Source of the DNA: Chloroflexota bacterium
Lineage (GTDB): Bacteria > Chloroflexota > UBA11872
Reading direction: 5' to 3'
Assembly (NCBI GenBank): GCA_028873795.1
Contig: JAPPNP010000025.1
Span: 5,930 to 69,929 of the forward strand
DNA: 64,000 nucleotides
Positions 16,570-29,193 of this stretch are shown here, in pieces. Positions within the stretch are counted from its first letter, which is position 1; every line of letters begins with the position of its first letter. The notes below the pieces were generated by a model. It did no database searches and was not told the origin of the DNA. It worked only from the letters and a program-made list of their open reading frames with translations. Position numbers and translations under genes: made by a program.

Positions 16570-17418
16570 CTAGACCAGTAGCGGCGCCAAGAACTGTTGG
16601 GCTAGCACCAGCCCCTTGAGCGCGTCGTTCTCGGGATTGGTCCTGGCGCTCCAGAACGGGTCCTCGTGCTCGACGACCAGCGGACCGTCGTAGCCGATCT
16701 CCAGCAGCGCCGTGATGAAGGCGGACCAGTCGATCACGCCAAATCCCGGAATCCGAAAGCGATACGTTCCCTGCCCGATCCGCCCGCGCTCGGCGCCGAT
16801 AGCGCCGAACCGGTAGCGCGCCTCGGGCAGGAATTCGGTGTCCTTCGCGTGCGCCTGGTAAATGCGAGAGCCGAACTCCCGCGCCGCGCGGAGATAGTCG
16901 ATGCCCAGCCAGACCAGGTGCGACGGATCGAAGCACAGCCCCAGCGTCTCGTGGGGCACGGCGTCGAAAATCGCCTCCCAGTGCGCCGGCGCATAGGCCA
17001 GGTTGCGCCCGCCATCTGCCCAGTTCTCCATCACCAGGCGCACGCCGAGCCGCTGCGCGTGGTCCAGCACCGGCGCCACGCCTTCCGCGAAGAGGCGCAC
17101 GTTGACGTCGAACCCCAGGTCGGGGGCCATCTGGTGGCCCAGCCATGCCAGCGGAATCTGCTCGGCGGCGGCGTAGTCCAACGCCTGGCGCGCTTTGGCC
17201 GCCTGCGCCGCCCGCGCCTCCGCATCGGTGGCAATTGGCTGGCAGATCATGCCCGTGGTGGACGTCGGCTCCAGGCCGTGACGCTCGCAGATGGCGCGGG
17301 CGTTGGGCTGGAACAGCGGCACGTCGATGGCCTGGTAGCCGTTCGCCGCGCCCCAGCGCACGAACTCCTCGAAGTCGATCGGCGAAAAGTGCCCGTTGTG
17401 GAAGTAGCCGAGCCTCAA
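16570..17418 (-). CDS. Sugar phosphate isomerase/epimerase (AP endonuclease 2 fold)
   Basis: The 282-residue protein is a TIM barrel of the xylose-isomerase-like family (IolE, tagatose epimerase and relatives). Candidate metal ligands lie in the expected order: Glu in RLVMENWAD, Asp and His in CFDPSHLVW, His in YQAHAKDTEF, and Glu in PLVVEHEDP. It would isomerise or epimerise a keto-sugar or inosose with a divalent metal. It is divergent from the ABC exporter at 17570 and convergent with the betaine-binding gene. The exact substrate is unknown, but the enzyme fits the carbohydrate theme of the region. Confidence 0.85.
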   Translation of the reverse strand: MRLGYFHNGHFSPIDFEEFVRWGAANGYQAIDVPLFQPNARAICERHGLEPTSTTGMICQPIATDAEARAAQAAKARQALDYAAAEQIPLAWLGHQMAPDLGFDVNVRLFAEGVAPVLDHAQRLGVRLVMENWADGGRNLAYAPAHWEAIFDAVPHETLGLCFDPSHLVWLGIDYLRAAREFGSRIYQAHAKDTEFLPEARYRFGAIGAERGRIGQGTYRFRIPGFGVIDWSAFITALLEIGYDGPLVVEHEDPFWSARTNPENDALKGLVLAQQFLAPLLV

Positions 17419-17569
17419 GGCGACCTCGCTGGCTGATTCGTGATTGGCGACATCGCCGCGGCGACCGCGCTCGGATCGAGAAGGTGATTGGCGCGTGGGA
17501 GACGACCGCTCGTTTCCCGCACTTCATTATATCCGCGATTTTCCGAATTCTCGGCGGGAATCGGCACTG

Positions 17570-19417
17570 ATGGCGGCGGCGATCGCCGTCAGACTATTGG
17601 AGACACGCCGCTGCAGAATATTCGACACCCCTATCGCCGCTAAGCCAGAAGCTGCCGAATCCTCCAGGTCCGCCGCCATCGTGCGGCAGGAGCTCCGGCG
17701 ACGCTGGCGCGCCGTTGCGCTTGCGTCGGGGCTCATGTTGGGCAGCGCGGCCCTCAGCATCGTTCCAGCCCTGCTTGTCGCCGCGCTGATCGATCACGCC
17801 CTGCCCGGCGGCGACCTCGGATTGGCGGCGGCGCTCGCCGCCGGGATGGCCGCAGCGGGCCTCGCGCTTCTCGTGCTGTCGTCCTTTGAGAGCTACATGC
17901 GGGCCTCGATCGGCGAAGCTGTGTCGCAGCGTCTCCGCCGGAAGGCTTTCGACTGCGTCTCGGCCGCCGAACTCGTCGAGCTCGAGCAGATGCCCTCGCA
18001 GCAGCTCGTGTTTCGACTCACCAGGTCATGCGGGCGCATCGGCGAGATGTATGTGTCCGAATCGTTGCTCCCCGCGGCCTCTCACACACTGCTGTTGGTC
18101 GCCGCGCTGGCGGCCATGTTCGTCATCGCCTGGCCGCTGGGAATCATGGCTGTCGTGGTGATTCCAGTCCTGGCGCTTGGCGTTGGCCGCCTCGGATCAC
18201 TTTCCACGCGTCTCGACCGAGAGTTCTTTGGGCATCTCGAGCGCGGTCAAGGATTTCTTCAGGAGGTGCTTGCCGGCATTCGCGTGGTCCGCGTGTTCGA
18301 CGCCACGGCGCACGAGCGCCGGCGATGGCTCGAATGGATCCACGCGCACTGGCGCGCCAAGGCCAAAACCGTCGCCCTGCACGACGTGGTGATTGCCCGC
18401 ATCGGTCCGGCCGCACAGGCGCTCGTCACCGCAGCGGCATTTGGATTTGGCGCCGTCCTCATCGCCGGCGACCACCTGTCGCTCGGCGGGCTGATCGCGG
18501 CGGCGGCGCTGGCGCCTCGGGCCTATGTGTCCGTGCAGCGCCTGCTGACGCTCCAGGGAAACCGGGCGCGGATCGAAGCGGAGTATGAGCGCGTGGATGC
18601 CCTGTTCGACCTGTCCCCGGAGCGGGTCGGCGGCAGGACACCGCCGCCGCTTCCGGCGGCTGACTCCGGATCTCGGATTGAGTTCCGAGAGGCCACATTC
18701 CGCTACGCGCGGGAAGACGCGGGCGTCTTCGGCGTCTCGTTCTCGGTCGAGCCGGGTGAATTCCTCGGCATCGTGGGTGAGACCGGCAGCGGCAAGTCGA
18801 CGCTGCTGGACCTGCTGGTCGGCTTCTATGCGCCGCATGAGGGAGCGGTGCATGTCGATGGGGTCGACACGCACGAGATTGATCTCTCGTGGCTGCGCCG
18901 CCAGGTCGGCTTCGTGCCCCAGGAGCCCAGGCTGTGGGACGCGACCATCGCCGACAACATCCGCTATCCGACGGGCGCGGCCGGTGACGCGGAGCTCCGG
19001 CAGGCGCTGCGGGACGCGCAGCTCGACGAATTCCTGGCCAGACTGCCGCAAGGGCTAGAGACCATTGTTGGCGAGCTCGGCCAGAGTATTTCCGCTGGCG
19101 AGCGGCAGCGGATCGCTGTCGCTCGCGCGCTCCTGAGAGACCCGCGCCTGCTCATCCTGGATGAAGCCACGGCCTCGTTGGATGCGGCTACCGAGCGAGA
19201 CTTGCGGCGCGCGCTTGCGTCGTCCCGGCGCGGCCGCACCCTGATCGTCGTCACCCATCGGATCGAAACAGTGATGGGCGCGGACCGGATTGTGGTGATG
19301 GACCGCGGCCAGGTGCTCGAGCAGGGGTCGCCGGACGAGCTTCTCCAAGCCGGCGGTCGGTTCGCCAGTCTACGTCGGGCCCAGGCCGGTGACGCGGCGG
19401 TAGGCCGGTCGGGATAG
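17570..19417 (+). CDS. ABC exporter half-transporter (fused permease-ATPase)
   Basis: The 615-residue protein has an N-terminal six-helix exporter domain (about 35-320) and a C-terminal ATPase: Walker A GETGSGKST near 402, signature SISAGERQR near 505 (a variant of LSGGQ), Walker B LLILDEATAS near 527, and the switch His in VVTHR. It would function as a dimer in export of lipid, peptide or drug; the cargo is unknown. ATG 17570 is preferred because GGCGGGAA precedes it; the frame is open from 17444 but that part lacks membrane character. It stands alone, convergent with the large protease gene. Confidence 0.9.
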   Translation: MAAAIAVRLLETRRCRIFDTPIAAKPEAAESSRSAAIVRQELRRRWRAVALASGLMLGSAALSIVPALLVAALIDHALPGGDLGLAAALAAGMAAAGLALLVLSSFESYMRASIGEAVSQRLRRKAFDCVSAAELVELEQMPSQQLVFRLTRSCGRIGEMYVSESLLPAASHTLLLVAALAAMFVIAWPLGIMAVVVIPVLALGVGRLGSLSTRLDREFFGHLERGQGFLQEVLAGIRVVRVFDATAHERRRWLEWIHAHWRAKAKTVALHDVVIARIGPAAQALVTAAAFGFGAVLIAGDHLSLGGLIAAAALAPRAYVSVQRLLTLQGNRARIEAEYERVDALFDLSPERVGGRTPPPLPAADSGSRIEFREATFRYAREDAGVFGVSFSVEPGEFLGIVGETGSGKSTLLDLLVGFYAPHEGAVHVDGVDTHEIDLSWLRRQVGFVPQEPRLWDATIADNIRYPTGAAGDAELRQALRDAQLDEFLARLPQGLETIVGELGQSISAGERQRIAVARALLRDPRLLILDEATASLDAATERDLRRALASSRRGRTLIVVTHRIETVMGADRIVVMDRGQVLEQGSPDELLQAGGRFASLRRAQAGDAAVGRSG

Positions 19418-19523
19418 GTCGGACCGGGCGCAACCCTCACCGCTGAAGTGAAGTCATTTCCCGGACCAGGGTGCATTGATCCGGCTCGTATTGGGCCTGA
19501 CGAATCGGAAGTGAGATGCGCAG

Positions 19524-22500
19524 CTAACCGGTCAGGCAGTTGGGATAGTCGCCCCTGGCCGGAAGGCCCCTGGCCGGATAGGGCGGCCCGGGGTTGAGCC
19601 GCTCGAAGAACCCCGCATCGGCCGCCGTCACATTGCACCAGTAGAAGCCAAGGGCCTGGAAGGTGGCGATATCCGGCACGTGCCGCCACTGCCCGATGGT
19701 GGCGTCGTAGCCAAAGATGCGGTCGTCGCCGCCGTCGAAGCGCCGCACCAGCAGGTTGGGCTCGGGGAACTGGTCGTCGAGCGGAATGGCGCCCACGACG
19801 CCGACGGGGACGGTGTATCGCGTGTTCACGATGGGCCAGGGAATCTGGTAGACGAACGGGCTGTAGGGCGGCACCCAGCGCCGCACGATGCGCCCGTCGG
19901 ATGCGCGACGCACTACGAGATAGGTCTGGCCCAGGGTCGCGTCCCGGATGACACCGGCCAAGACCACCGACCGTCCGTCGGCGGAGATGGCGCCGATAGG
20001 CAGCTCGAGCGAGGCGCCGGGGACGTCATGGCGCTCGAGGCGGAGGCGGTTGCCGGGGAGTTCGACGGCAGTGGCCGTGGCGGTGGCGCCAATGACGTGT
20101 TGCACAGTGGCCGGAGCCACCGGCGCCGGGGGGCTAGGAGGCGGCGGTGGAGCCGGTCCGCTAGGGCTGCGCGGAGGTTGCGGCGGCGACGGCGGCGACG
20201 GCGGGGATGGTGGGGACGGTGGTGACGGCGGGGATGGCGGCGTCGGCGGCGACGGAGTGGGCGACGGCGATGGAGCCGGCGCGGGCTCTGGCGCCACGGG
20301 GTTGTCCGAAACTGCGGCAACGCGCTTGGCTGCGCCGAGGGCATCGCTAAAGCGGGCGGTCGCGCGCAGATAGTGCCCCTCGTCGTCGGCAACCGGCGTG
20401 TAGGCGGCTGCGGTCGCTCCGCTGATCATGGTCCAGGCACCACGGTCACGCGATCGATCCCAGGTCCACGTCAGGTCGGACACACTTCCCTCAGTTGCGG
20501 TCAGGCTCGCGGTCAGTTCCTGTCCGACTTGTGGCTGCGTCGACGACAGGGTCACCGTTCCGGCGTCGTCCGTCTCGGTGACCGTGATCGTGACATCGAT
20601 CGTGGCGGACTGCGCCGACGGATCCCGGGCAGTGACCGTAACTCGGTGCTCGGGTTCGGTTTGCCGATCCAGAGCCTCTCTCGTCCGCAACTGGCCCGAC
20701 GCTGGATCAATGCCGAATCGGGAGGCGCCGGGGCCGCTCAGGGCATAGGTGAGGATGTCGTCGTCGGGGTCGCTGGCCTCCACCGGCGCGCCGATGTCCG
20801 CGCCCGCCGGCGCGCTTTCGGCCACGCTGCGTGCACCGGTCTCGGTGGACGGGAACTCGGGCGCGCCGTTTACCGGCGGCACCGCCCGCACGGCATAAGG
20901 CGATTCGGCCTGTGCGGATTTGCCCGACCCGTGCCCATCGGCGTAGTGGGCGGTGACACGCAGGTGGTGCCCGAGGTCGGCCGCGGTCGGCGTGTATGTT
21001 GCCGACCCGGCACCGCTGATGGCGCTCCAATCGATTCGGTTCGACGAACGCTCCCAATCCCACGTCACGCCTGACGGGCTGCCGTCGGGGTCTGTCAGCG
21101 TGGCGGTGAGCGGCGTCGCGATTTGCGGCTGTAATTGGGAGAGGGTTATGGAGCCCGGGATGTCAGACCGGTGCCCGTAAACGGTGAGGCTCCACGATTC
21201 CAGGGTGGAGTCGAAGAAGCCCGAGATTCGGTCAGACACCCGCAGCGTCCACACGCCGGCGGGATGTTCACCCAGGTGCCGGGCCGATCCGAATCGGAAC
21301 GTGCCGCACAGCTCACAGGCAAATGTATGGCGACTCGCCACGTCATTGGGGGCAGCGCTTGCGGTCAATTCTGGATCGTAGGGAATGCTCAATATGGAGA
21401 CCGCGCCCGACGGCGATATCAACTCGACCTGCAAGTCCCTAAAGGTCGGAGCGCCAAACGTCGCGTTAACCTCAACGTATTCGGTGAAGTGCACGTCCGA
21501 GCCCATGGTGATGCTGCTGGTGATCGACGTGCCGTCGTCGGGGATCGCCAGCTCGACCTCGGCAGCTTCCGCGGTTTCCTGAACGAATTCCGGCAGATTG
21601 GTCCAGCTCCTGGCCAGGTCCACGGCGGCCGTCGCGTCCACCACGCCAAAGCCATACTCATGATTGAAGCGGTAGTGTTCGGTGGTGGATCCATATTTGA
21701 GAGCGCCAAGCTCCCAGCTGGGATTTGCCGGGTCATTCTGGCGCGCGGAGGCGGCGAGAATGAGCTTTAGGTCCCGCCAGGTGAGGTTGGGGTTGGCTTC
21801 GCGAAGCAGCGCCGCCACGCCGGACACCATGGGCGTAGCGGCAGACGTACCGCCAAAATTACCCCGATAACGGTTGCGACTGGCGGTGGTGGCGATTCTG
21901 GCGGTGCCTAGCCGAGAGTCGTCAGACGGCGCACAAACCCACAGGTTGGGGCCCATCTCGGAGTAGGTCGATCGCACGCCCTGGTCGTTGACGGCGCAAA
22001 CGGCCGTTACGGCGTAGTGGTTCGCATAGCCTTCGAGATTTGAATAGTCACCCCTGAGCGCCCCATTGCCAGCCGACCAGGCATAGAAGGTGCCCAGTCC
22101 CGAATACCCATCCGTCACACCCGCCGTCACCGCCAGATCCCAGATCAAGCCGGATGCGTTCAGGCGGGGACTGTCAACGTAGCCCCAACTGTTGTTGGAG
22201 ACGGCCGTGGCCTCCATGTCTCGTGTCATGGCATCCGCCGCGTTGGCATCGGACGGCTGCTGCAGGAAGTTGTAGCCATAGACGACAGCCCGGGGCGCCA
22301 CGCCTCGAATGCCCACGCTGTTGTCTCGGGCCGCAATGATCCCCGCGACGCTCGTGCCGTGCGTCTCTGACGGGTCGTAGATGTCGGACTGACCTGTGTA
22401 GTCATGATTGAGCGATCGGTTGACGTTATCGGACAGATCCTCATGTTCGTAGTCCATGCCATCGTCGACTACCGCCACAAAGATTCCCGAACCCAAGCTG

Positions 22501-24053
22501 CCGGCAGACCAGAGCTCTTCAATGTTAATATCTTCGTCTAACCTGCCGTTAAATTGCTCTGAATTATTCAAATACCACTGACATCCATACAGTGGATCAC
22601 TGATGGCGGTAATAATGTCCGTGCAGCGCTCCAAGAATCTCACGTAGCCTGCGTCTTCGACTGCAAGGATGGTATACGGACCGGTATCTTCTCCGCCTTG
22701 TCGCGTCACGCGAATGAAGTATGTTCCAGCCGGTAGGTGGTCACGAATAATGAAGCCGCCGAAAAGGAAATCGAAATCAACGAGATATACATCGACTGGT
22801 CTTGTATTGCTATCAAGTACTATCCCTTCAATATCCACTACAAAGCTAACGCCGAAGATTCTCACGTAGGTGTCCCGGGCGAGCGTGAGACGGAAGTAAT
22901 CGACATCGTGCGATGGATCAATCCTTCCTCTGTCAGCTTCGCCAAGCATCACGTCCGTTGCTGCATTGGTGGTATTTCCGGGCTCATTGACGCTATCCAC
23001 GTGCAACGTATATGGGCCTGTAGATTCGCTGATACCGCCAAGGACTTTGATGTAGTACTCGCCAGCCTCCAGGCGTAGTCGAAACGCAAAGTGAAGCAGA
23101 TGGGAAAGAAAGCCAATTTCATTCGAGGCGATCACAGCGCCGGTGGAATCGAGGATCCTGCCGCCCGTATCGAGAATGCTGCCCGTGGTGCGAATGACGA
23201 GGTCGGTATCGGAGGCAAGGTCGAGCTTGAAATAATCCGCATCAGTGCCGGGCTCAATGATCCCGTTGGCGAACCCGTCGAGCGCGACGGGCTGCGCGTC
23301 GTCGATGCCGGTGGAGTCCACAATCTGCTTGGTGTGGATCGTGTAGGCGCCAGTGGCGCCTCGGTGACCGGTGACCTTGATGAAGTACTGGCCGGGTTCG
23401 ACGCTGGCCCACAGGAAGAAATGAGCGGCGCCGTGCGGCAGGTATCCGTCGTTGTTGTCGTGAATGACCTCGCCGCCGGAGCTTTGGAGTTCGCCGACGG
23501 TGTCCAGATCGCCTGAGGTATAGACGAACAGGCCGGCCGCACGCGACAGACGCACGCTGAAGTAGTCAACATCCGTCCCGGAATCGATGACGCCACTGAC
23601 CGGCGTTTCCAGCGTGAGCGCCGTCGCGGATTCTCTCGAGTCGCCGTGGTCCTCGGGAGTGCCGGAAGTGGTGGTTGACCAGTCGCCATCACCGTCGGCG
23701 TTGACGGCCCGCACCTGCACGTCGTATTGCACATCGACGCTCAGGCCCGTGACCGCGAAGTTGAGCTCGCCGGAGGTCCAGGCCTCCTCTACCACTTCCC
23801 ACGCGGCGTCGGCCTTGTCGACGGCGGCGCTTTCGATCGTCCGCACGTCGTAGGCCGTGATCGCGGAGTTGCCGGTTTCGGTGGGTTCGGTCCACACGAC
23901 AGTCAGCGAGCGGTCCCCCGGCGTAACGGTCGTGATCGTCGGCGCATGCGGCACGCCGTGTCCCGCCTGAACGCCGCCAAACGCGGAAAGCAAGCCGACC
24001 AGCACGACGAGTCCGGCAGCCGACAGCCGAGGCCTGATCGGCCGAAACCTCAT
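19524..24053 (-). CDS. Secreted multidomain kexin-like subtilase (S8 family)
   Basis: The 1509-residue protein has a signal peptide (1-30), a fibronectin III domain (36-131), three PPC-like beta domains (about 138-240, 246-352, 360-465), a subtilase domain (about 485-815) with Asp530 in VVDDG, His565 in ETHGTSVAG, Asn663 and Ser737 in GGTSAATP, a P domain (825-960), an Ig-like domain, a cadherin-like domain (1063-1160), another Ig-like domain, a Pro/Ser linker (1254-1312) and a Cys-containing C-terminal module. DDG after the catalytic Asp and the P domain place it in the kexin branch. No propeptide precedes the catalytic domain; a candidate is encoded separately at 24170-24913. It should digest external proteins. 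Bases 22500-23100 are richer in A+T. Confidence 0.93.
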   Translation of the reverse strand: MRFRPIRPRLSAAGLVVLVGLLSAFGGVQAGHGVPHAPTITTVTPGDRSLTVVWTEPTETGNSAITAYDVRTIESAAVDKADAAWEVVEEAWTSGELNFAVTGLSVDVQYDVQVRAVNADGDGDWSTTTSGTPEDHGDSRESATALTLETPVSGVIDSGTDVDYFSVRLSRAAGLFVYTSGDLDTVGELQSSGGEVIHDNNDGYLPHGAAHFFLWASVEPGQYFIKVTGHRGATGAYTIHTKQIVDSTGIDDAQPVALDGFANGIIEPGTDADYFKLDLASDTDLVIRTTGSILDTGGRILDSTGAVIASNEIGFLSHLLHFAFRLRLEAGEYYIKVLGGISESTGPYTLHVDSVNEPGNTTNAATDVMLGEADRGRIDPSHDVDYFRLTLARDTYVRIFGVSFVVDIEGIVLDSNTRPVDVYLVDFDFLFGGFIIRDHLPAGTYFIRVTRQGGEDTGPYTILAVEDAGYVRFLERCTDIITAISDPLYGCQWYLNNSEQFNGRLDEDINIEELWSAGSLGSGIFVAVVDDGMDYEHEDLSDNVNRSLNHDYTGQSDIYDPSETHGTSVAGIIAARDNSVGIRGVAPRAVVYGYNFLQQPSDANAADAMTRDMEATAVSNNSWGYVDSPRLNASGLIWDLAVTAGVTDGYSGLGTFYAWSAGNGALRGDYSNLEGYANHYAVTAVCAVNDQGVRSTYSEMGPNLWVCAPSDDSRLGTARIATTASRNRYRGNFGGTSAATPMVSGVAALLREANPNLTWRDLKLILAASARQNDPANPSWELGALKYGSTTEHYRFNHEYGFGVVDATAAVDLARSWTNLPEFVQETAEAAEVELAIPDDGTSITSSITMGSDVHFTEYVEVNATFGAPTFRDLQVELISPSGAVSILSIPYDPELTASAAPNDVASRHTFACELCGTFRFGSARHLGEHPAGVWTLRVSDRISGFFDSTLESWSLTVYGHRSDIPGSITLSQLQPQIATPLTATLTDPDGSPSGVTWDWERSSNRIDWSAISGAGSATYTPTAADLGHHLRVTAHYADGHGSGKSAQAESPYAVRAVPPVNGAPEFPSTETGARSVAESAPAGADIGAPVEASDPDDDILTYALSGPGASRFGIDPASGQLRTREALDRQTEPEHRVTVTARDPSAQSATIDVTITVTETDDAGTVTLSSTQPQVGQELTASLTATEGSVSDLTWTWDRSRDRGAWTMISGATAAAYTPVADDEGHYLRATARFSDALGAAKRVAAVSDNPVAPEPAPAPSPSPTPSPPTPPSPPSPPSPPSPPSPPSPPQPPRSPSGPAPPPPPSPPAPVAPATVQHVIGATATATAVELPGNRLRLERHDVPGASLELPIGAISADGRSVVLAGVIRDATLGQTYLVVRRASDGRIVRRWVPPYSPFVYQIPWPIVNTRYTVPVGVVGAIPLDDQFPEPNLLVRRFDGGDDRIFGYDATIGQWRHVPDIATFQALGFYWCNVTAADAGFFERLNPGPPYPARGLPARGDYPNCLTG
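20182..20253. repeat. 9-bp minisatellite coding for the Pro/Ser linker
   Basis: Eight adjacent 9-bp units close to GGCGGCGAC on the plus strand encode repeated Pro-Pro-Ser on the minus strand, inside the protease gene. Copy number of such a short in-frame repeat can vary without breaking the frame. It likely forms a stiff spacer before the C-terminal module. Confidence 0.8.
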
Positions 24054-24169
24054 GCGACGCCTATGCCGGCGCGCATCCGTCCGGGTTCCCCGGGCGAGGC
24101 GTCATCGGGGTGCGGGCACAGGCGCCAGGGTCGACTGGCCGCTGGCGACTTGCTGTGAATGTGGCGGCC

Positions 24170-24913
24170 TCACTTCGCTTCGATTTCCCTCCACCAGTTG
24201 GGGCTCGAGAGCACCACGCCGTCCTGGCCAGCCAACGCGTTCGCCAAGTCGAGTGACGGAAAGCCGGGTTCGGTGTCGATCAGAAAGCCATTCGGAAGAA
24301 AGCCCAACGCCGACATCCGGGCCGTGGAAATGTTGTTGCGGGCGAAGAAGCCTGCGACGGCGGCCTCGTCCCAGTCAGGGTCGAGCACCAGCAGCACGCC
24401 GCCGGGAAGCGCCATCAGACCGCCGCCGCTTTCCGACCGAAACACGGGAAGCGTGTCGCGGCCGTGCCGGCCCTGTTTGCGGACGATGTGGTCGCTGCCG
24501 ACGCGAGCCATGACACCGTCGGACGCCGCGATGTTCGCCGTCTGGTCAACGACGAGATCCGTCTGCAGCACGACCCGGCGCGTCGCGTCTCCGTCATGCC
24601 AGCTATAGACCGTGCCCTGATTCGCGGCCGTTTGCGGGGAAGCCGTTGCCGCATCAGTGGGTTCGGTCGGCAAGCGCTCGAGCCTCGACAGGTCGGGCAA
24701 GTCGGGGAGCTTGAGCGGCGGCTCCGTGGGCGCCGGCGTGGGCTCGTTCGTCGAAGTTGCTGAGGGTGTGTTGGTGACCGCCAGTGAGTTCTCAGCCGGC
24801 GTCGGGTTCGGAGCCAGGGCTACTCGGGCGGCAAGGACCCCAGCGGTGGCGGCAGCCAACGCCACCGTGGACGCAAGGGCGACTGCGAAGGTGCTGAACC
24901 TGGGGAATCTCAT
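24170..24913 (-). CDS. Secreted protein with subtilase-propeptide-like domain
   Basis: The 247-residue product has a signal peptide (1-29), a Thr/Pro-rich low-complexity stretch (about 35-95), and a C-terminal domain at about 155-247 with the pattern of an inhibitor-I9-like subtilase propeptide: GGVLLVLDPDWDEAAVAGFFARNN, then LPNGFLIDTEPG and SLDLANALAGQDGVVLSSPNWW. Propeptides normally head their own protease and end in a PNW/PDF-like stretch just before the mature start. Here the protease gene begins 116 bp downstream on the same strand. The inferred role is a chaperone or inhibitor in trans. AGGTGG precedes ATG 24913. Recognition is by pattern alone. Confidence 0.72.
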   Translation of the reverse strand: MRFPRFSTFAVALASTVALAAATAGVLAARVALAPNPTPAENSLAVTNTPSATSTNEPTPAPTEPPLKLPDLPDLSRLERLPTEPTDAATASPQTAANQGTVYSWHDGDATRRVVLQTDLVVDQTANIAASDGVMARVGSDHIVRKQGRHGRDTLPVFRSESGGGLMALPGGVLLVLDPDWDEAAVAGFFARNNISTARMSALGFLPNGFLIDTEPGFPSLDLANALAGQDGVVLSSPNWWREIEAK

Positions 24914-25189
24914 GTCAACCCACCTGGCGCGGCTGACGTTTCAGCGATCCCGGCGTTTCGCGACTATACGTAAACTGATCGATTCGTACTAAATAGGGAT
25001 ACGACAGTACCGATTGGATTATATCTGTTTTGGAGACGCTTTCTCGGTTCGCGCGCAGGGCGACTGGCGTCTGGGCCCCGCGTCGCGCGCCCGGTCGTGC
25101 CGGCGAACACGATGCCCCGGTGACACACCACGGGGCTTGGGCCCCGTTCCGTCTGGTCTAGCGGCCGGCGGTGAGCAATGGCATGGCGG
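24914..25189. other. Intergenic upstream region of the propeptide gene
   Basis: No intact gene is supported. The part at 24950-25030 is AT-rich and, read on the minus strand, contains a perfect TATAAT at 25018-25023, about 105 bp before the propeptide gene, without a convincing -35 box. The remainder (25040-25189) is GC-rich with no recognisable coding pattern. This leader could be shared by the propeptide and protease genes. Confidence 0.4.
25018..25023 (-). promoter_or_regulatory. Candidate -10 element (TATAAT) of the propeptide-protease pair
   Basis: A perfect -10 hexamer on the minus strand lies in an AT-rich patch upstream of the secreted propeptide-like gene. No good -35 partner is seen at 16-18 bp, so the call rests on one hexamer. 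Confidence 0.25.
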
Positions 25190-25336
25190 CTACCCGGTCA
25201 GGCACTTGTCGAATTTGCGCGAGCTGGCTCCGTGCTGACTGGATGGGAAGGTCCTCGGCTGAACCGCTCGAAAGAAGGCGGCGTCCGCAGCGGTCACGAT
25301 GCGCAAGTTGAAGCCCAGGGCCTGTCCGGCCGATTG
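25190..25336 (-). pseudogene. Remnant of the protease C-terminal module
   Basis: Read on the minus strand, this 48-codon segment plus TAG matches the last 46 residues of the 1509-residue protease: it keeps QALGF, IVTAADAAFF (VTAADAGFF in the protease) and the terminal CLTG. The residues between these anchors have diverged. Similarity stops about 10 bp from the stop of the methyltransferase gene, so the rest of the older gene is gone. No start codon or signal belongs to it. I read it as the tail of a deleted paralogue of the protease, or of another protein with the same C-terminal module. Confidence 0.75.
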
Positions 25337-25346
25337 GCAGCTTCGC

Positions 25347-26162
25347 CTATGCGGACGGCTTGCGAGCGATCAGCAGAAACGCGCCCGGCAATCGCTGAAC
25401 GGCCTCCAGATCGTCACCGAACCGCCAGGTCGCCGAGCTGGGGAACTCTTCCAAGCGTTCGATGTGGAGGCCGGCCTGCGCCACGCTGGTGACGATGTCG
25501 CCGAGGGGCCAGGTCCAATCCCACTTCGTCTCGGGGGCGTCCTCGCCGCCGCTGAAATGACACCACCCGGTGGATGCTTCCGGCTGCCGCGCGAAGTAGT
25601 CCGTCACGACTTCGATCGATCCCTCGCGCACCTCGACGCAGGCGATGACGGGATGCTCCTCGCGCACGATGAGCCGTCCCGAGGGCCTGAGCAGACCGTG
25701 GATCGTCGTCGCCCAGCGGTCGAGATCGGGTAGCCAGACCAGGGCGCCGCCGCCCGTGTAGACGATGTCGAAGGACTCGGGGCCAAGCAGGTCCTCGGGG
25801 AGCGCGCAGACGTCCGCGGCCACGAATTCGGCGGGAATCCCCGCGGCTGCGGCCTTGGCGTGCGCCAGCTCGATCTGCCTGGGGCTGATGTCGACGCCGG
25901 TGACCGTGGCGCCCAGGTTGGCCCATGAGAGCGTGTCTTCACCGGAGGCGCACTGCAGGTGGCACAGACGCAGGCCCCGCACGTCCCCGGCGGCCTGACG
26001 ATCCGACTCCGCCAGCAGGCACCCGCCCTCGGCAAAGAATCTGGCCGGCGGCCAAATCTTCTGGCGCTTGTCGGCGATGGCGTCCCAGGCGATGCGATTG
26101 GCGGCGGTGTAGGAGGTTCTGGGATCGCCCGTCTGGCCCGACCCGCTTGGCACGGTGCTCAC
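25347..26162 (-). CDS. Class I SAM-dependent methyltransferase
   Basis: The 271-residue enzyme begins with a GTG at 26160-26162, shortly after the TauD-like gene. Motif I is LQCASGEDTLSWANLGATVTGVD, the variant (LQC-x-G-x-DTL) seen in a set of class I methyltransferases; later motifs are FDIVYTGGGALVWLPDL and a C-terminal TWPLGDIVTSVAQAGLHIERLEEFP. It has no membrane or signal segment. The methyl acceptor is unknown; relatives act on small molecules. The frame is open to 26381 but that region is shadow of the TauD gene. Its stop lies close to the protease-tail remnant. Confidence 0.85.
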   Translation of the reverse strand: MSTVPSGSGQTGDPRTSYTAANRIAWDAIADKRQKIWPPARFFAEGGCLLAESDRQAAGDVRGLRLCHLQCASGEDTLSWANLGATVTGVDISPRQIELAHAKAAAAGIPAEFVAADVCALPEDLLGPESFDIVYTGGGALVWLPDLDRWATTIHGLLRPSGRLIVREEHPVIACVEVREGSIEVVTDYFARQPEASTGWCHFSGGEDAPETKWDWTWPLGDIVTSVAQAGLHIERLEEFPSSATWRFGDDLEAVQRLPGAFLLIARKPSA

Positions 26163-26184
26163 AAGCGATGCACCCGGGAGCCGG

Positions 26185-27039
26185 TTAGACCGGCAGGTCG
26201 CCCCGAATCGTGGTGCGGTGCATGTGGCGGGTGTATTTCGGGTCGAAGGCCGTGGCCTGGTGCAGGGTGCAGCGGTTGTCCCAGAACACGATGTCGTGCA
26301 GCCGCCACACGTGCCGGTAGACGAACTGCGGTTGCGTCGCGTGGTCGTTGAGCTCTTGCAGCAACGCCTCGCCCTCCGCATCCTCCACGCCTTCGATTCC
26401 GGCTACGAGCGACGGGCTCACGTAAAGCGCCTTGCGTCCGGTGTCCGGATGCGTGCGCACCAGCGGGTGAATAGCCGTGGGCACCTTGGCCGCCTGCTCC
26501 GCGGTCAGCGTGGGCCGCTCCATTGCGGACTCCTGAAACCGGCGATTGATGAAGTCGGCATAGGAGTGCCGCAGGCAAAGCCCGTCGATGCGCTCCTTCG
26601 TTTCCGGCGACAGTGTGTCGTAGGCCGAATAGAGGTTGGCGTAGAGCGTGTCGCCGCCCGTCGGTGGGATCTCCAGCGCGTAGAGCAGTGAGCCGAGAGA
26701 CGGGAGCCGCATGTAGGAGAGGTCGCTGTGCCACTCGCGGCCCGCGTCTTGCAGCCCGACCGGCACTCCGTTCACACGCTTGTTGGAAAGCACCAGGACC
26801 TCCGGCTGCTCCGGCAGCAGAAACTGGTTCAACACATGGAGCTCGAGCTCGCCGAACCGGGCGCTGAAGGTCGCATGGTCCGCCGGTGAGATGTCCTGAT
26901 CGCGGATGACCACCACGTTGTGGTCCAGCAACGCCTGGTGAATGGTCTGAAACTGCTCGTCGTCGTCTGGACGGGTGAGATCGGCGCCAATGACCTCGGC
27001 GCCCAGGGCGGAGGAGACCGGCCTGACCTCTATCGCCAT
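26185..27039 (-). CDS. TauD/TfdA-family Fe(II)/2-oxoglutarate dioxygenase
   Basis: The 284-residue enzyme carries the TauD facial triad: His104 and Asp106 in WHSD, the distal His260 in WDNRCTLHQA, and the 2-oxoglutarate-binding Arg275 in MHRTTIRGD. TauD relatives hydroxylate sulfonates, aryloxyalkanoates, carnitine precursors or other small acids, releasing succinate and CO2. No sulfonate transporter lies nearby, so taurine is only one option. The ATG at 27037-27039 begins the standard N-terminus (IEVRPVSSALGAEVIGADL). The methyltransferase gene follows 22 bp downstream, so the two may be co-transcribed. Confidence 0.92.
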   Translation of the reverse strand: MAIEVRPVSSALGAEVIGADLTRPDDDEQFQTIHQALLDHNVVVIRDQDISPADHATFSARFGELELHVLNQFLLPEQPEVLVLSNKRVNGVPVGLQDAGREWHSDLSYMRLPSLGSLLYALEIPPTGGDTLYANLYSAYDTLSPETKERIDGLCLRHSYADFINRRFQESAMERPTLTAEQAAKVPTAIHPLVRTHPDTGRKALYVSPSLVAGIEGVEDAEGEALLQELNDHATQPQFVYRHVWRLHDIVFWDNRCTLHQATAFDPKYTRHMHRTTIRGDLPV

Positions 27040-27122
27040 GAATCAGTCTCGATATCCGGGGCGCCCGCAAGCCGTGCGGGACGTGGGGCGCTCATCGTAG
27101 CAGCGCGCTGCCGGTACCCGGG

Positions 27123-28418
27123 CTATGCCGAGGGCGCCGTCAGCGGGGCCAGCAGCTCGTCGGTGATATAGCGGCCCAGGCCGAAGATCTTGCGGTCGGC
27201 GTACCACAGGATGCGCTCGCCGCGGTGCTCGGTGACGCTGGCATACATCGAGAGCCACTTCATATAGAACGGGAACACCCCGATGTTCTGCGTGTCGAAG
27301 AGCAACCGGGGCTGGCTGAACCAGATCGGCTGGTGGGCGCCGGGCCGGAATTCACCCACGGCGATGAACTGCGGCCGGCGCGCATGGAAGTCGCGCGGGC
27401 CGCGACCGCCGAATCCGTGCCCGTCGTGGTTCTGCAGCATGAGCAAGAACCGTCCGTCATCCAGCGCGAAGATGGGGCACGGCGAGACGGGATTGAGCAT
27501 GGGCCGGCCATCATCGCGGTTGCGCAGCGGTTCCGTCGGGCGCCAGGTGCGGCCGTCGTCGTCGGAGACCGTGTACCAAATCTGGCCCGACGCCGTGCGG
27601 GCCACGGTGAAGAGGCGGCCGTCGGGCAGCAGCACGGCGCTCGGCTCCTCGCAATAGGAGTAGTTACGCGAAGCCTCGGGCTCGTAGGGCACCGGCACCC
27701 GGATGGCCGTTTCGTCGTCCTGCAGCCAGGTGATCTGCACGTCGCGCGGATGCGGCGACTCGTCGATGTTCTCGAACCGCATGAATTCGGCCTGGCTGTC
27801 GCGGCGGGACATGGTGAAATCGTCCTCGCGGCGCGCCGTCTTGACGTACGAGTTCGTCCAGCGGGTGAAGCCGATGAGGGGGCGGTCCCGCGCGTCGCGG
27901 ATGGGCTTCTGCCACACCACGCAATTGGCGCCGATGGAGCGGTCCGGGTGGTCGTTCGCGCTGGACCGGTAGGGAATCACGACCTCCCCGTCGATCCAGG
28001 TCCTGCCGTCGTCATCGGAGTACTTGCAGCGCAGGAAGCTGGTCTGATAGCTGTCGCCGATGGCCCGGCCGTGGTTGTAGAAGCAGTAGATGCGCCCGAG
28101 GCGGCTCATGATCGGAAACCCGAACGCGCTCACCTGGCCGGGCTTCGCCCCAGGGCCGTCAATGACGCCCACCGCCGACCACGTCCGGCCGCCGTCGGAG
28201 CTTCGCGAGTACGCCACCCGGTAGTCGGCCCCGTGCGGCTGGCTGGCCAGCGCGAAGATCGCCAGCAGATCGCCGCCCGGCGTGACGTCCACCAAAACGT
28301 GGTCCACCGCCTCGATCCAGTACGAGGGCTCCTTCGGCAGATACAGCACCAGGTCGGGGTCGGTGCGTCGCCAGTCCTCGCTGAAGCATTCGTGATCGCC
28401 TGGAGTCGCCGTTGTCAT
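27123..28418 (-). CDS. Sialidase-fold (BNR/Asp-box) protein, cytosolic
   Basis: The 431-residue protein has three Asp boxes, SSDGGRTW, SDDDGRTW and SDDDGRTW, spaced as in six-bladed sialidase-type propellers, plus arginines that could line an active site (for example IGFTRWTN, TVARTASG). No signal peptide is seen, unlike secreted sialidases. Families with this fold include sialidases, rhamnosidases and uncharacterised BNR glycosidases, so a glycoside hydrolase or carbohydrate-binding role is plausible but not proven. It lies between the TauD dioxygenase and a small methyltransferase on the same strand. Confidence 0.82.
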   Translation of the reverse strand: MTTATPGDHECFSEDWRRTDPDLVLYLPKEPSYWIEAVDHVLVDVTPGGDLLAIFALASQPHGADYRVAYSRSSDGGRTWSAVGVIDGPGAKPGQVSAFGFPIMSRLGRIYCFYNHGRAIGDSYQTSFLRCKYSDDDGRTWIDGEVVIPYRSSANDHPDRSIGANCVVWQKPIRDARDRPLIGFTRWTNSYVKTARREDDFTMSRRDSQAEFMRFENIDESPHPRDVQITWLQDDETAIRVPVPYEPEASRNYSYCEEPSAVLLPDGRLFTVARTASGQIWYTVSDDDGRTWRPTEPLRNRDDGRPMLNPVSPCPIFALDDGRFLLMLQNHDGHGFGGRGPRDFHARRPQFIAVGEFRPGAHQPIWFSQPRLLFDTQNIGVFPFYMKWLSMYASVTEHRGERILWYADRKIFGLGRYITDELLAPLTAPSA

Positions 28419-28544
28419 GGGTTCACCTATGCGGGCTTGTCGCTGTGGCAGTGGTCACAGCCTAGCGGCAGGGTGAGGCGGCTGCCCACGATCGATGACG
28501 AGCGTTGATCGGCTGAAGGGACGCTGGCGCCGACAGACCAATAC

Positions 28545-29126
28545 TTACGCGCGCTTGCGCGCTTTCACGAAGACACTCTTGGCCAGCGAACCGTGCATCT
28601 CCACATCGAGCACCTCAGCGCGGTCGATGTCGAGTCCGGCCAGCGCCGCCGCGACTTCATCGACGGACGCCAGCGCGTCCGCCTCCATGAAGTTCCACGC
28701 CGTAGCCATGGAGCGCTCCCACTCCGCCACGATCAGCGTGCCGCCGGTTGCCAGCGCCTTCGTCGCGGTGGCCAGGACGGCGCGACGATTCGGGCCCTTG
28801 GGTGGGAGAGCGTAGGCGCTGACCACCAGGTCGAACAATCGAGGCGGCCGCCACTGCGCGGCGTCGGCGACGACAAACGTTGCTTTGAGGCCGTGGTCGC
28901 GTGCGGCGGTGCGGGCCAGATCGATGGCTGCCTCGGCGAAGTCCACGCCGGTGACGTGCCAGCCATGCTCGGCCAGCCCAAGCGCCAGTGTTCCAGGCCC
29001 GCAGCCGAGGTCGAGCGCGTGGCCTGGGGTTAATGCAGCGCCGATGGCCAGAAAGAGCGCCTCCGTGCCTGTCCCTGGATCGGGGTCTGCGCCGGTGTAG
29101 AGTCGATTCCACGACTCACGGTCCAT
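28545..29126 (-). CDS. Small class I SAM-dependent methyltransferase
   Basis: The 193-residue protein is a TehB/UbiE-like class I methyltransferase: motif I ALDLGCGPGTLALGLAEHGWHVTGVDFA at about 37-64, an acidic motif II VVADAAQW, and FDLVVSAYALPP after strand 4. The ATG at 29124-29126 gives the typical MDRESWNRLYTG start. It is monodomain, without transmembrane segments. The acceptor could be a metalloid, thiol or small metabolite; nothing in the sequence decides. It sits in a set of minus-strand genes with three Fe(II) dioxygenases. Confidence 0.88.
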   Translation of the reverse strand: MDRESWNRLYTGADPDPGTGTEALFLAIGAALTPGHALDLGCGPGTLALGLAEHGWHVTGVDFAEAAIDLARTAARDHGLKATFVVADAAQWRPPRLFDLVVSAYALPPKGPNRRAVLATATKALATGGTLIVAEWERSMATAWNFMEADALASVDEVAAALAGLDIDRAEVLDVEMHGSLAKSVFVKARKRA

Positions 29127-29193
29127 GGACGACCTCCGGACCCAACGGGTCGTTGCCCCGGTGAATCATCCGTTCACGGTGCCGTGCCGCCGG

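Follow-up and report, generated by a model that had tools for sequence, protein, structure and literature searches.

A stand-alone propeptide-like protein encoded beside a propeptide-less kexin-like protease in Chloroflexota: a probable split zymogen

The propeptide of a subtilase is normally part of the protease itself, where it serves as both folding helper and safety lock, and the residues that follow the motif corresponding to PNW run into the active site. According to a 2022 survey, subtilase propeptides act intramolecularly, with the protease ASP of Aeromonas sobria as the exception (PMC9549277). ASP is a kexin-like S8 protease without a propeptide, and its chaperone, ORF2, is encoded by an adjacent gene; ORF2 is needed for maturation, places its C-terminus at the ASP active site and inhibits the enzyme with an IC50 of 84 nM (PMC5638518, which cites Kobayashi et al. 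2015). Pairs of the ASP/ORF2 type also occur in Vibrio, Shewanella, Chromobacterium and Pseudoalteromonas (PMC5638518). Stand-alone I9-like proteins are known as well, namely the yeast protease B inhibitor, POIA1, Arabidopsis SPI-1, TgMIC5 and Plasmodium SUB1-ProM (PMC6993865).

The 64,000-nucleotide stretch of Chloroflexota DNA analysed here (the window) contains two minus-strand reading frames that form a similar pair (Table 1). Both begin with ATG and they are 116 bp apart; coordinates, shared strand and gap are exactly those given in an earlier sequence-only reading of this DNA, which had proposed a split zymogen without naming a precedent, although ASP/ORF2 provides a functional one (PMC5638518). 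No promoter or terminator signals were found between the two genes, an absence that carries little weight in a GC-rich genome. The large protein is the sole S8 protease found in its genome, and is arranged as signal peptide, fn3, PPC-like domains, S8, P domain, cadherin domain (residues 1076-1159, Pfam), Ig-like repeats, proline-rich stretch and C-terminal tail. Its closest solved relatives in the PDB were kexin and furin (E 3.5e-50), with an alignment running through residue 964, followed by the A. sobria protease, and motifs place the catalytic triad at D530, H565 and S737 (VVDDG, THGTSVAG and GGTSAATP). As for the features of a kexin-like subtilase, the S8 domain with its Asp/His/Ser triad and the C-terminal P domain are present and the cis prodomain is absent: no Pfam model for Inhibitor_I9, S8_pro-domain or the fervidolysin prodomain matched the window protease, and a related protease of genome G360, used as positive control for cis-prodomain detection, did match PF16470. 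The usual place of the propeptide is occupied by the PPC-like domains, with a weak Pfam match to PPC at residues 271-337. An AF2 model of low overall confidence was all-beta over residues ~31-466, with no alpha/beta propeptide-like domain before S8, and it agrees with the Pfam results in bearing out the earlier description, in which a signal peptide leads into fn3 and PPC-like domains and a propeptide is missing.

Table 1. Positions in the window of the gene pair, its encoded domains and its surroundings
Feature	Position	Strand	Basis
Protease gene, 1509 aa, kexin-like S8 without own propeptide	19524..24053	-	ORF, Pfam, PDB matches
Protease signal peptide, residues 1-30	23964..24053	-	sequence; equivalents in 8/8 paired proteases
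fn3, residues 38-131	23661..23942	-	Pfam PF00041 E 2.5e-10
PPC-like beta domains, ~residues 132-470	22644..23660	-	PF04151 weak; significant in relative L095; AF2 all-beta
Peptidase_S8 catalytic domain, residues 521-803	21645..22493	-	PF00082 E 3e-43; motif alignment
P domain (P_proprotein), residues 858-957	21183..21482	-	PF01483 E 5e-11
C-terminal tail module, residues 1400-1509	19527..19856	-	72-83% identity to three other large proteins of the same genome
Small protein gene, 247 aa, stand-alone propeptide	24170..24913	-	ORF; homologues upstream of similar protease in 7 other genomes; fused in G692, G616
Hydrophobic N-terminus, residues 1-31, either signal peptide or membrane anchor	24821..24913	-	hydropathy maximum at residue 9
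Low-complexity P/S/T/E/D/N/Q/G-rich linker, residues 32-102	24608..24820	-	composition
Conserved propeptide module, residues 103-247, start YSWHDGD	24173..24607	-	alignments
Core propeptide domain, residues 157-247, fervidolysin-prodomain-like	24173..24445	-	hhalign, PF22148 segment of G979, C-terminal spacing
Lineage-specific insertion, 5.9 kb, gene pair its sole content	19437..25356	.	flanks joined in five same-genus genomes
Remnant of second protease C-terminal tail, upstream of small gene	25194..25325	-	tblastn, blastn

A search for the pair in related genomes had been set beforehand as a test, and it returned seven further genomes with the small gene first. A protease-based scan found a 57% identical relative in MAG contig RHO1_bin_22 (L037), and the neighbouring gene upstream of it encodes a homologue of the small protein, 60% identical across the domain; profile searches then added G407, G309, G350 and G398, and later G657 and G644. 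All eight stand-alone proteins, including that of the window, are encoded directly upstream of a co-oriented, propeptide-less protease, and every one of these proteases begins with a signal peptide of its own, after which come fn3 and PPC-like domains. In the relatives, the first candidate protease start follows the stop codon of the small gene at -4 to ~57 bp, compared with 116 bp for the window pair. Distances among the partners and among the proteases were correlated (Mantel r 0.83, exact p 0.00025); this co-divergence shows joint inheritance and would fit joint function, and it may partly reflect co-inheritance alone. Pattern scans for the small protein in genome and viral contigs gave no match, nor did tblastn of the small protein against plasmids. 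Three matches to the full-length small protein (G011, G049 and G057) covered the low-complexity N-terminal half only and were dropped.

Among 297 relatives, S8-P sequences above 200 bits were confined to five paired genomes, G499 and G360, and all other subtilases scored at most 103 bits, besides more fragments in the paired genomes. The G360 protease (L081, 297 bits) belongs to the same S8-P-cadherin family neighbourhood and differs from the paired enzymes in carrying its S8_pro-domain (PF16470) in cis, as a kexin-type protease; a stand-alone partner was not found in that genome. For the related protease of G499 (L054/L080), neither a partner nor a recognisable propeptide was found. The sequence around its catalytic Ser is altered (GGASSPVTAM). 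Two of the paired genomes have unusual protease arrangements. In G309 (L083/L084, G309:C128), a frame of 7664 codons behind one small gene encodes repeated fn3/PPC/P modules and three or more S8 units. In G398, three tandem proteases are distributed over two contigs and one small gene was found; the contigs, C19 (L048) and C47 (L079), end and begin in a shared GTSAAAPIVAGVGGGGGG stretch and are probably neighbours in the genome.

The window small protein ends in PNWWREIEAK, and no relative of it was found in Pfam, NCBIfam or the PDB; the domain and the family profile, searched against the same libraries, yielded chance matches only. The AF2 model of the domain, built from a two-sequence alignment, reached a pLDDT of 51, and a fold search with this low-confidence model returned no significant match, just weak ferredoxin-like folds. 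Its relationship became apparent through other proteases. The domain of the small protein is part of a single polypeptide with S8 in G692 (frame of 1728 codons) and G616 (frame of 1552 codons), where it immediately precedes S8 and no fn3 or PPC domains intervene (E 2.4e-13 and 3.6e-12, respectively, in whole-genome searches), and the profile of the eight split members aligned with these two fused domains at 98.9% in hhalign (E 2.6e-17). A blind search of 387 genomes of the phylum gave one further match, in an S8 protease of G979 (residues 198-273), a more distant fused relative; a profile of the eight stand-alone domains only matched the same residues with E 2e-11 in a one-sequence database, and Pfam assigns residues 201-269 of this protease, above cut-off, to Fervidolysin_NPro-like (PF22148). 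A direct match to PF22148 was absent in all stand-alone members and in both close fused members, G692 and G616.

The link was also approached from the propeptide side. The ten-member profile aligned with 14 fused bacterial propeptides at 62% in hhalign (E 7e-5, with 71 columns in register); none of 500 column shuffles scored as high, and three control segments of those proteases reached at most 4.4%. Across comparisons, the core domain scored 62-87% against bacterial fused propeptides. With six sequences hhalign was unspecific, a catalytic control segment scoring equally high, and the propeptide set became distinct once four sequences were added. Other propeptide groups, i.e., other I9-like ones and the long actinobacterial type, gave no match above controls in the profile comparison. 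The small protein is accordingly placed, through a transitive profile link, as a homologue of PF22148 prodomains. The pattern of a subtilase propeptide ending in PNWW, as first read from the letters, thus holds as far as a propeptide is concerned, on the strength of the profile link and the fused relatives; its type is fervidolysin-like rather than I9 proper. As evidence against itself the sequence-only reading had named relatives with a propeptide in their own N-terminus together with a pair that is not conserved. What was found is the domain of the small protein itself at the cis-propeptide position of G692 and G616, and a conserved pair.

Two features of the stand-alone proteins bear on how they might act. 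First, all eight stop exactly 8 residues after the conserved Asn of the last conserved motif, PNW, whereas the linker, which in all homologues consists of 57-75% PSTEDQNG, varies in length from 74 to 194 residues; the combination of a fixed free end and a variable linker suggests docking of the C-terminus in the active site. The last seven residues are variable in sequence (final K, Q, R or E), hence the tail does not preserve a substrate-like specificity. Second, the homologues L046, L047 and L094 (genomes G309, G350 and G657) have a lipobox and the others a long hydrophobic segment. The partner in the lipobox relatives is clearly predicted to be membrane-tethered, and the window protein may equally have a cleavable signal peptide or a membrane anchor. 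Its earlier description as a second secreted protein is thereby corrected, in that it may be tethered to the membrane rather than free. With a hydrophobic or lipobox N-terminus and a P/S/T/E/D-rich linker behind it, the family is organised like a domain tethered through a flexible arm, an organisation also seen in the lipase-specific foldase Lif (PMC7046727, PMC13381987).

We consider it quite likely that the pair is a split zymogen, in which a propeptide supplied in trans is both steric chaperone and product-like inhibitor. The conserved pair, the fused relatives and the prodomain homology all support the split arrangement that had been proposed; the chaperone and inhibitor mechanism is what we infer from it. 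Both chains would be exported separately, the small protein bringing its own membrane-targeting N-terminus and flexible linker and probably being tethered to the membrane, as the lipoboxes of three relatives suggest, with both options standing for the window protein itself. Its core domain (157-247) would then dock on S8 and template the folding of the protease, and, until the small protein is degraded or released, its free C-terminus may occupy the active-site cleft and inhibit the enzyme in the manner of a product.

By analogy, the window pair would work like ASP/ORF2. In both cases a propeptide-deficient protease is combined with an adjacent partner gene, here at eight of eight loci, and ASP ranks among the top PDB hits for the window protease; the position of the ORF2 C-terminus in the ASP active site suggests the same role for the free end of the partner here. 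However, the ORF2 gene lies downstream of its protease and the partner gene here upstream, and ORF2 ends in Gln-Pro-Lys whereas the end varies in the window family. In our case, moreover, descent from a fervidolysin-type prodomain is visible through fused relatives, and the N-termini are lipoprotein- or TM-like. ORF2 gave no match to the window protein or the family profile among the PDB chains searched, a set that perhaps does not include the ORF2 chain. The fervidolysin-type prodomain (PF22148) and I9-like propeptides share with the window protein the homology through the transitive profile link and the position in the fused relatives, but the window protein is a separate exported product, lies below direct Pfam detection and has a free end in place of a cleavage site at its C-terminus. 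Lif/LipH is likewise a membrane-anchored steric chaperone acting in trans on a separately exported enzyme (PMC13381987, PMC7046727); that enzyme is unrelated, no sequence relation is known, and the partner here derives from a cis propeptide.

Alternatively, the small protein could be an inhibitor only, that is, a membrane-anchored, propeptide-derived protein that shields the producer from its own protease and has no folding role. A membrane tether would suit self-protection, and the eukaryotic stand-alone propeptide-like proteins are known as inhibitors: like the window partner, they are a propeptide-like fold made as an independent product that acts on a subtilase, and the gene of SUB1-ProM also adjoins subtilase genes (PMC6993865). 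They are, however, seen as regulatory, chaperone-independent and possibly convergent, and PfSUB1 keeps its own propeptide (PMC6993865). Every paired protease here is without a recognisable propeptide of its own and no other candidate for folding is visible, and the fused forms place the domain at the cis-propeptide position, all of which makes a purely inhibitory role unlikely. Adjacent genes, a membrane-targeted N-terminus and a long linker would also be expected of a co-transcribed substrate of the protease or of its cell-surface anchor, but this is highly improbable for a protein whose conserved domain is a prodomain homologue, is fused before S8 in relatives and ends at a fixed C-terminus, which is not expected of a substrate. 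That a single gene was broken by a frameshift or insertion, or mis-assembled, as the existence of fused relatives might suggest, can be practically dismissed, because each half has its own start and export signal, ~450 residues of fn3/PPC that the fused forms lack precede S8, and the arrangement is kept in eight genomes with differing spacers.

Returning to the split zymogen, the catalytic units served by the partner may differ among genomes. The first S8 unit is without catalytic His and Ser in G309 (L084, unit at residue 541) and in G657 (L094, unit at 536), where DGT/EGT and GPK are found instead; the partner in these genomes must therefore serve another unit. These two dead units are sisters with a support of 100/99, which indicates that a pseudoprotease beside the propeptide gene is conserved. 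We put forward tentatively, as a possibility that we hold with some doubt, that the membrane-tethered propeptide, anchored by a lipid or a TM segment, is a foldase and lock that can be reused for several catalytic units, such as those of G309 and G398, with the conserved dead unit perhaps being a docking scaffold.

Within its genus the pair is new. In five same-genus genomes, the sequence of 17330-19436 abuts that of 25357-28504 (26187-28504 in one of the five), and the propeptide domain was not found in 300 other genomes of the phylum; since the insertion is missing in the genus and the domain absent from those genomes, the pair most likely arrived as a unit. In the tree of S8 units, a branch with a support of just 77/65 sets the split proteases apart (one change), the proteases fused to the same domain adjoin them, and the cis-propeptide subtilases are placed outside. 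Most simply, the split was derived once, when the propeptide became separate and fn3/PPC modules were inserted, in an order that the tree does not firmly resolve; one enzyme would have been split into two partners, with more distant relatives keeping the fused form. The 110-residue C-terminal tail of the protease recurs in three large proteins of the same genome (contigs C80, C3 and C85), and is possibly a lineage-specific module for surface attachment or sorting. Upstream of the small gene lies a remnant of this tail, which matched residues 1466-1509 with 47% identity in tblastn (E 5e-5) and gave 73% over 90 bp in blastn (E 3e-9); it is taken as the trace of a lost tandem copy or of recombination. 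Together with the occurrence of the tail in other proteins, it points to the protease being a local chimera or a collapsed tandem. Further along the window, a methyltransferase region (28545-29126, within 28504-29183) has no aligned counterpart at that place in the same-genus genomes, and is possibly a second small insertion beside the first.

The split propeptide described here is a second line of such an arrangement in subtilases besides ASP. With fused relatives at hand, the route from a cis to a trans propeptide can be both read and tested, and whether propeptide action requires covalent linkage can be addressed directly in natural enzymes. The propeptide family is missed by current domain libraries, which suggests that other proteases regarded as propeptide-less may have overlooked partners in their neighbourhood. 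For extracellular proteases, the pair offers an on/off switch that is separable from the enzyme.
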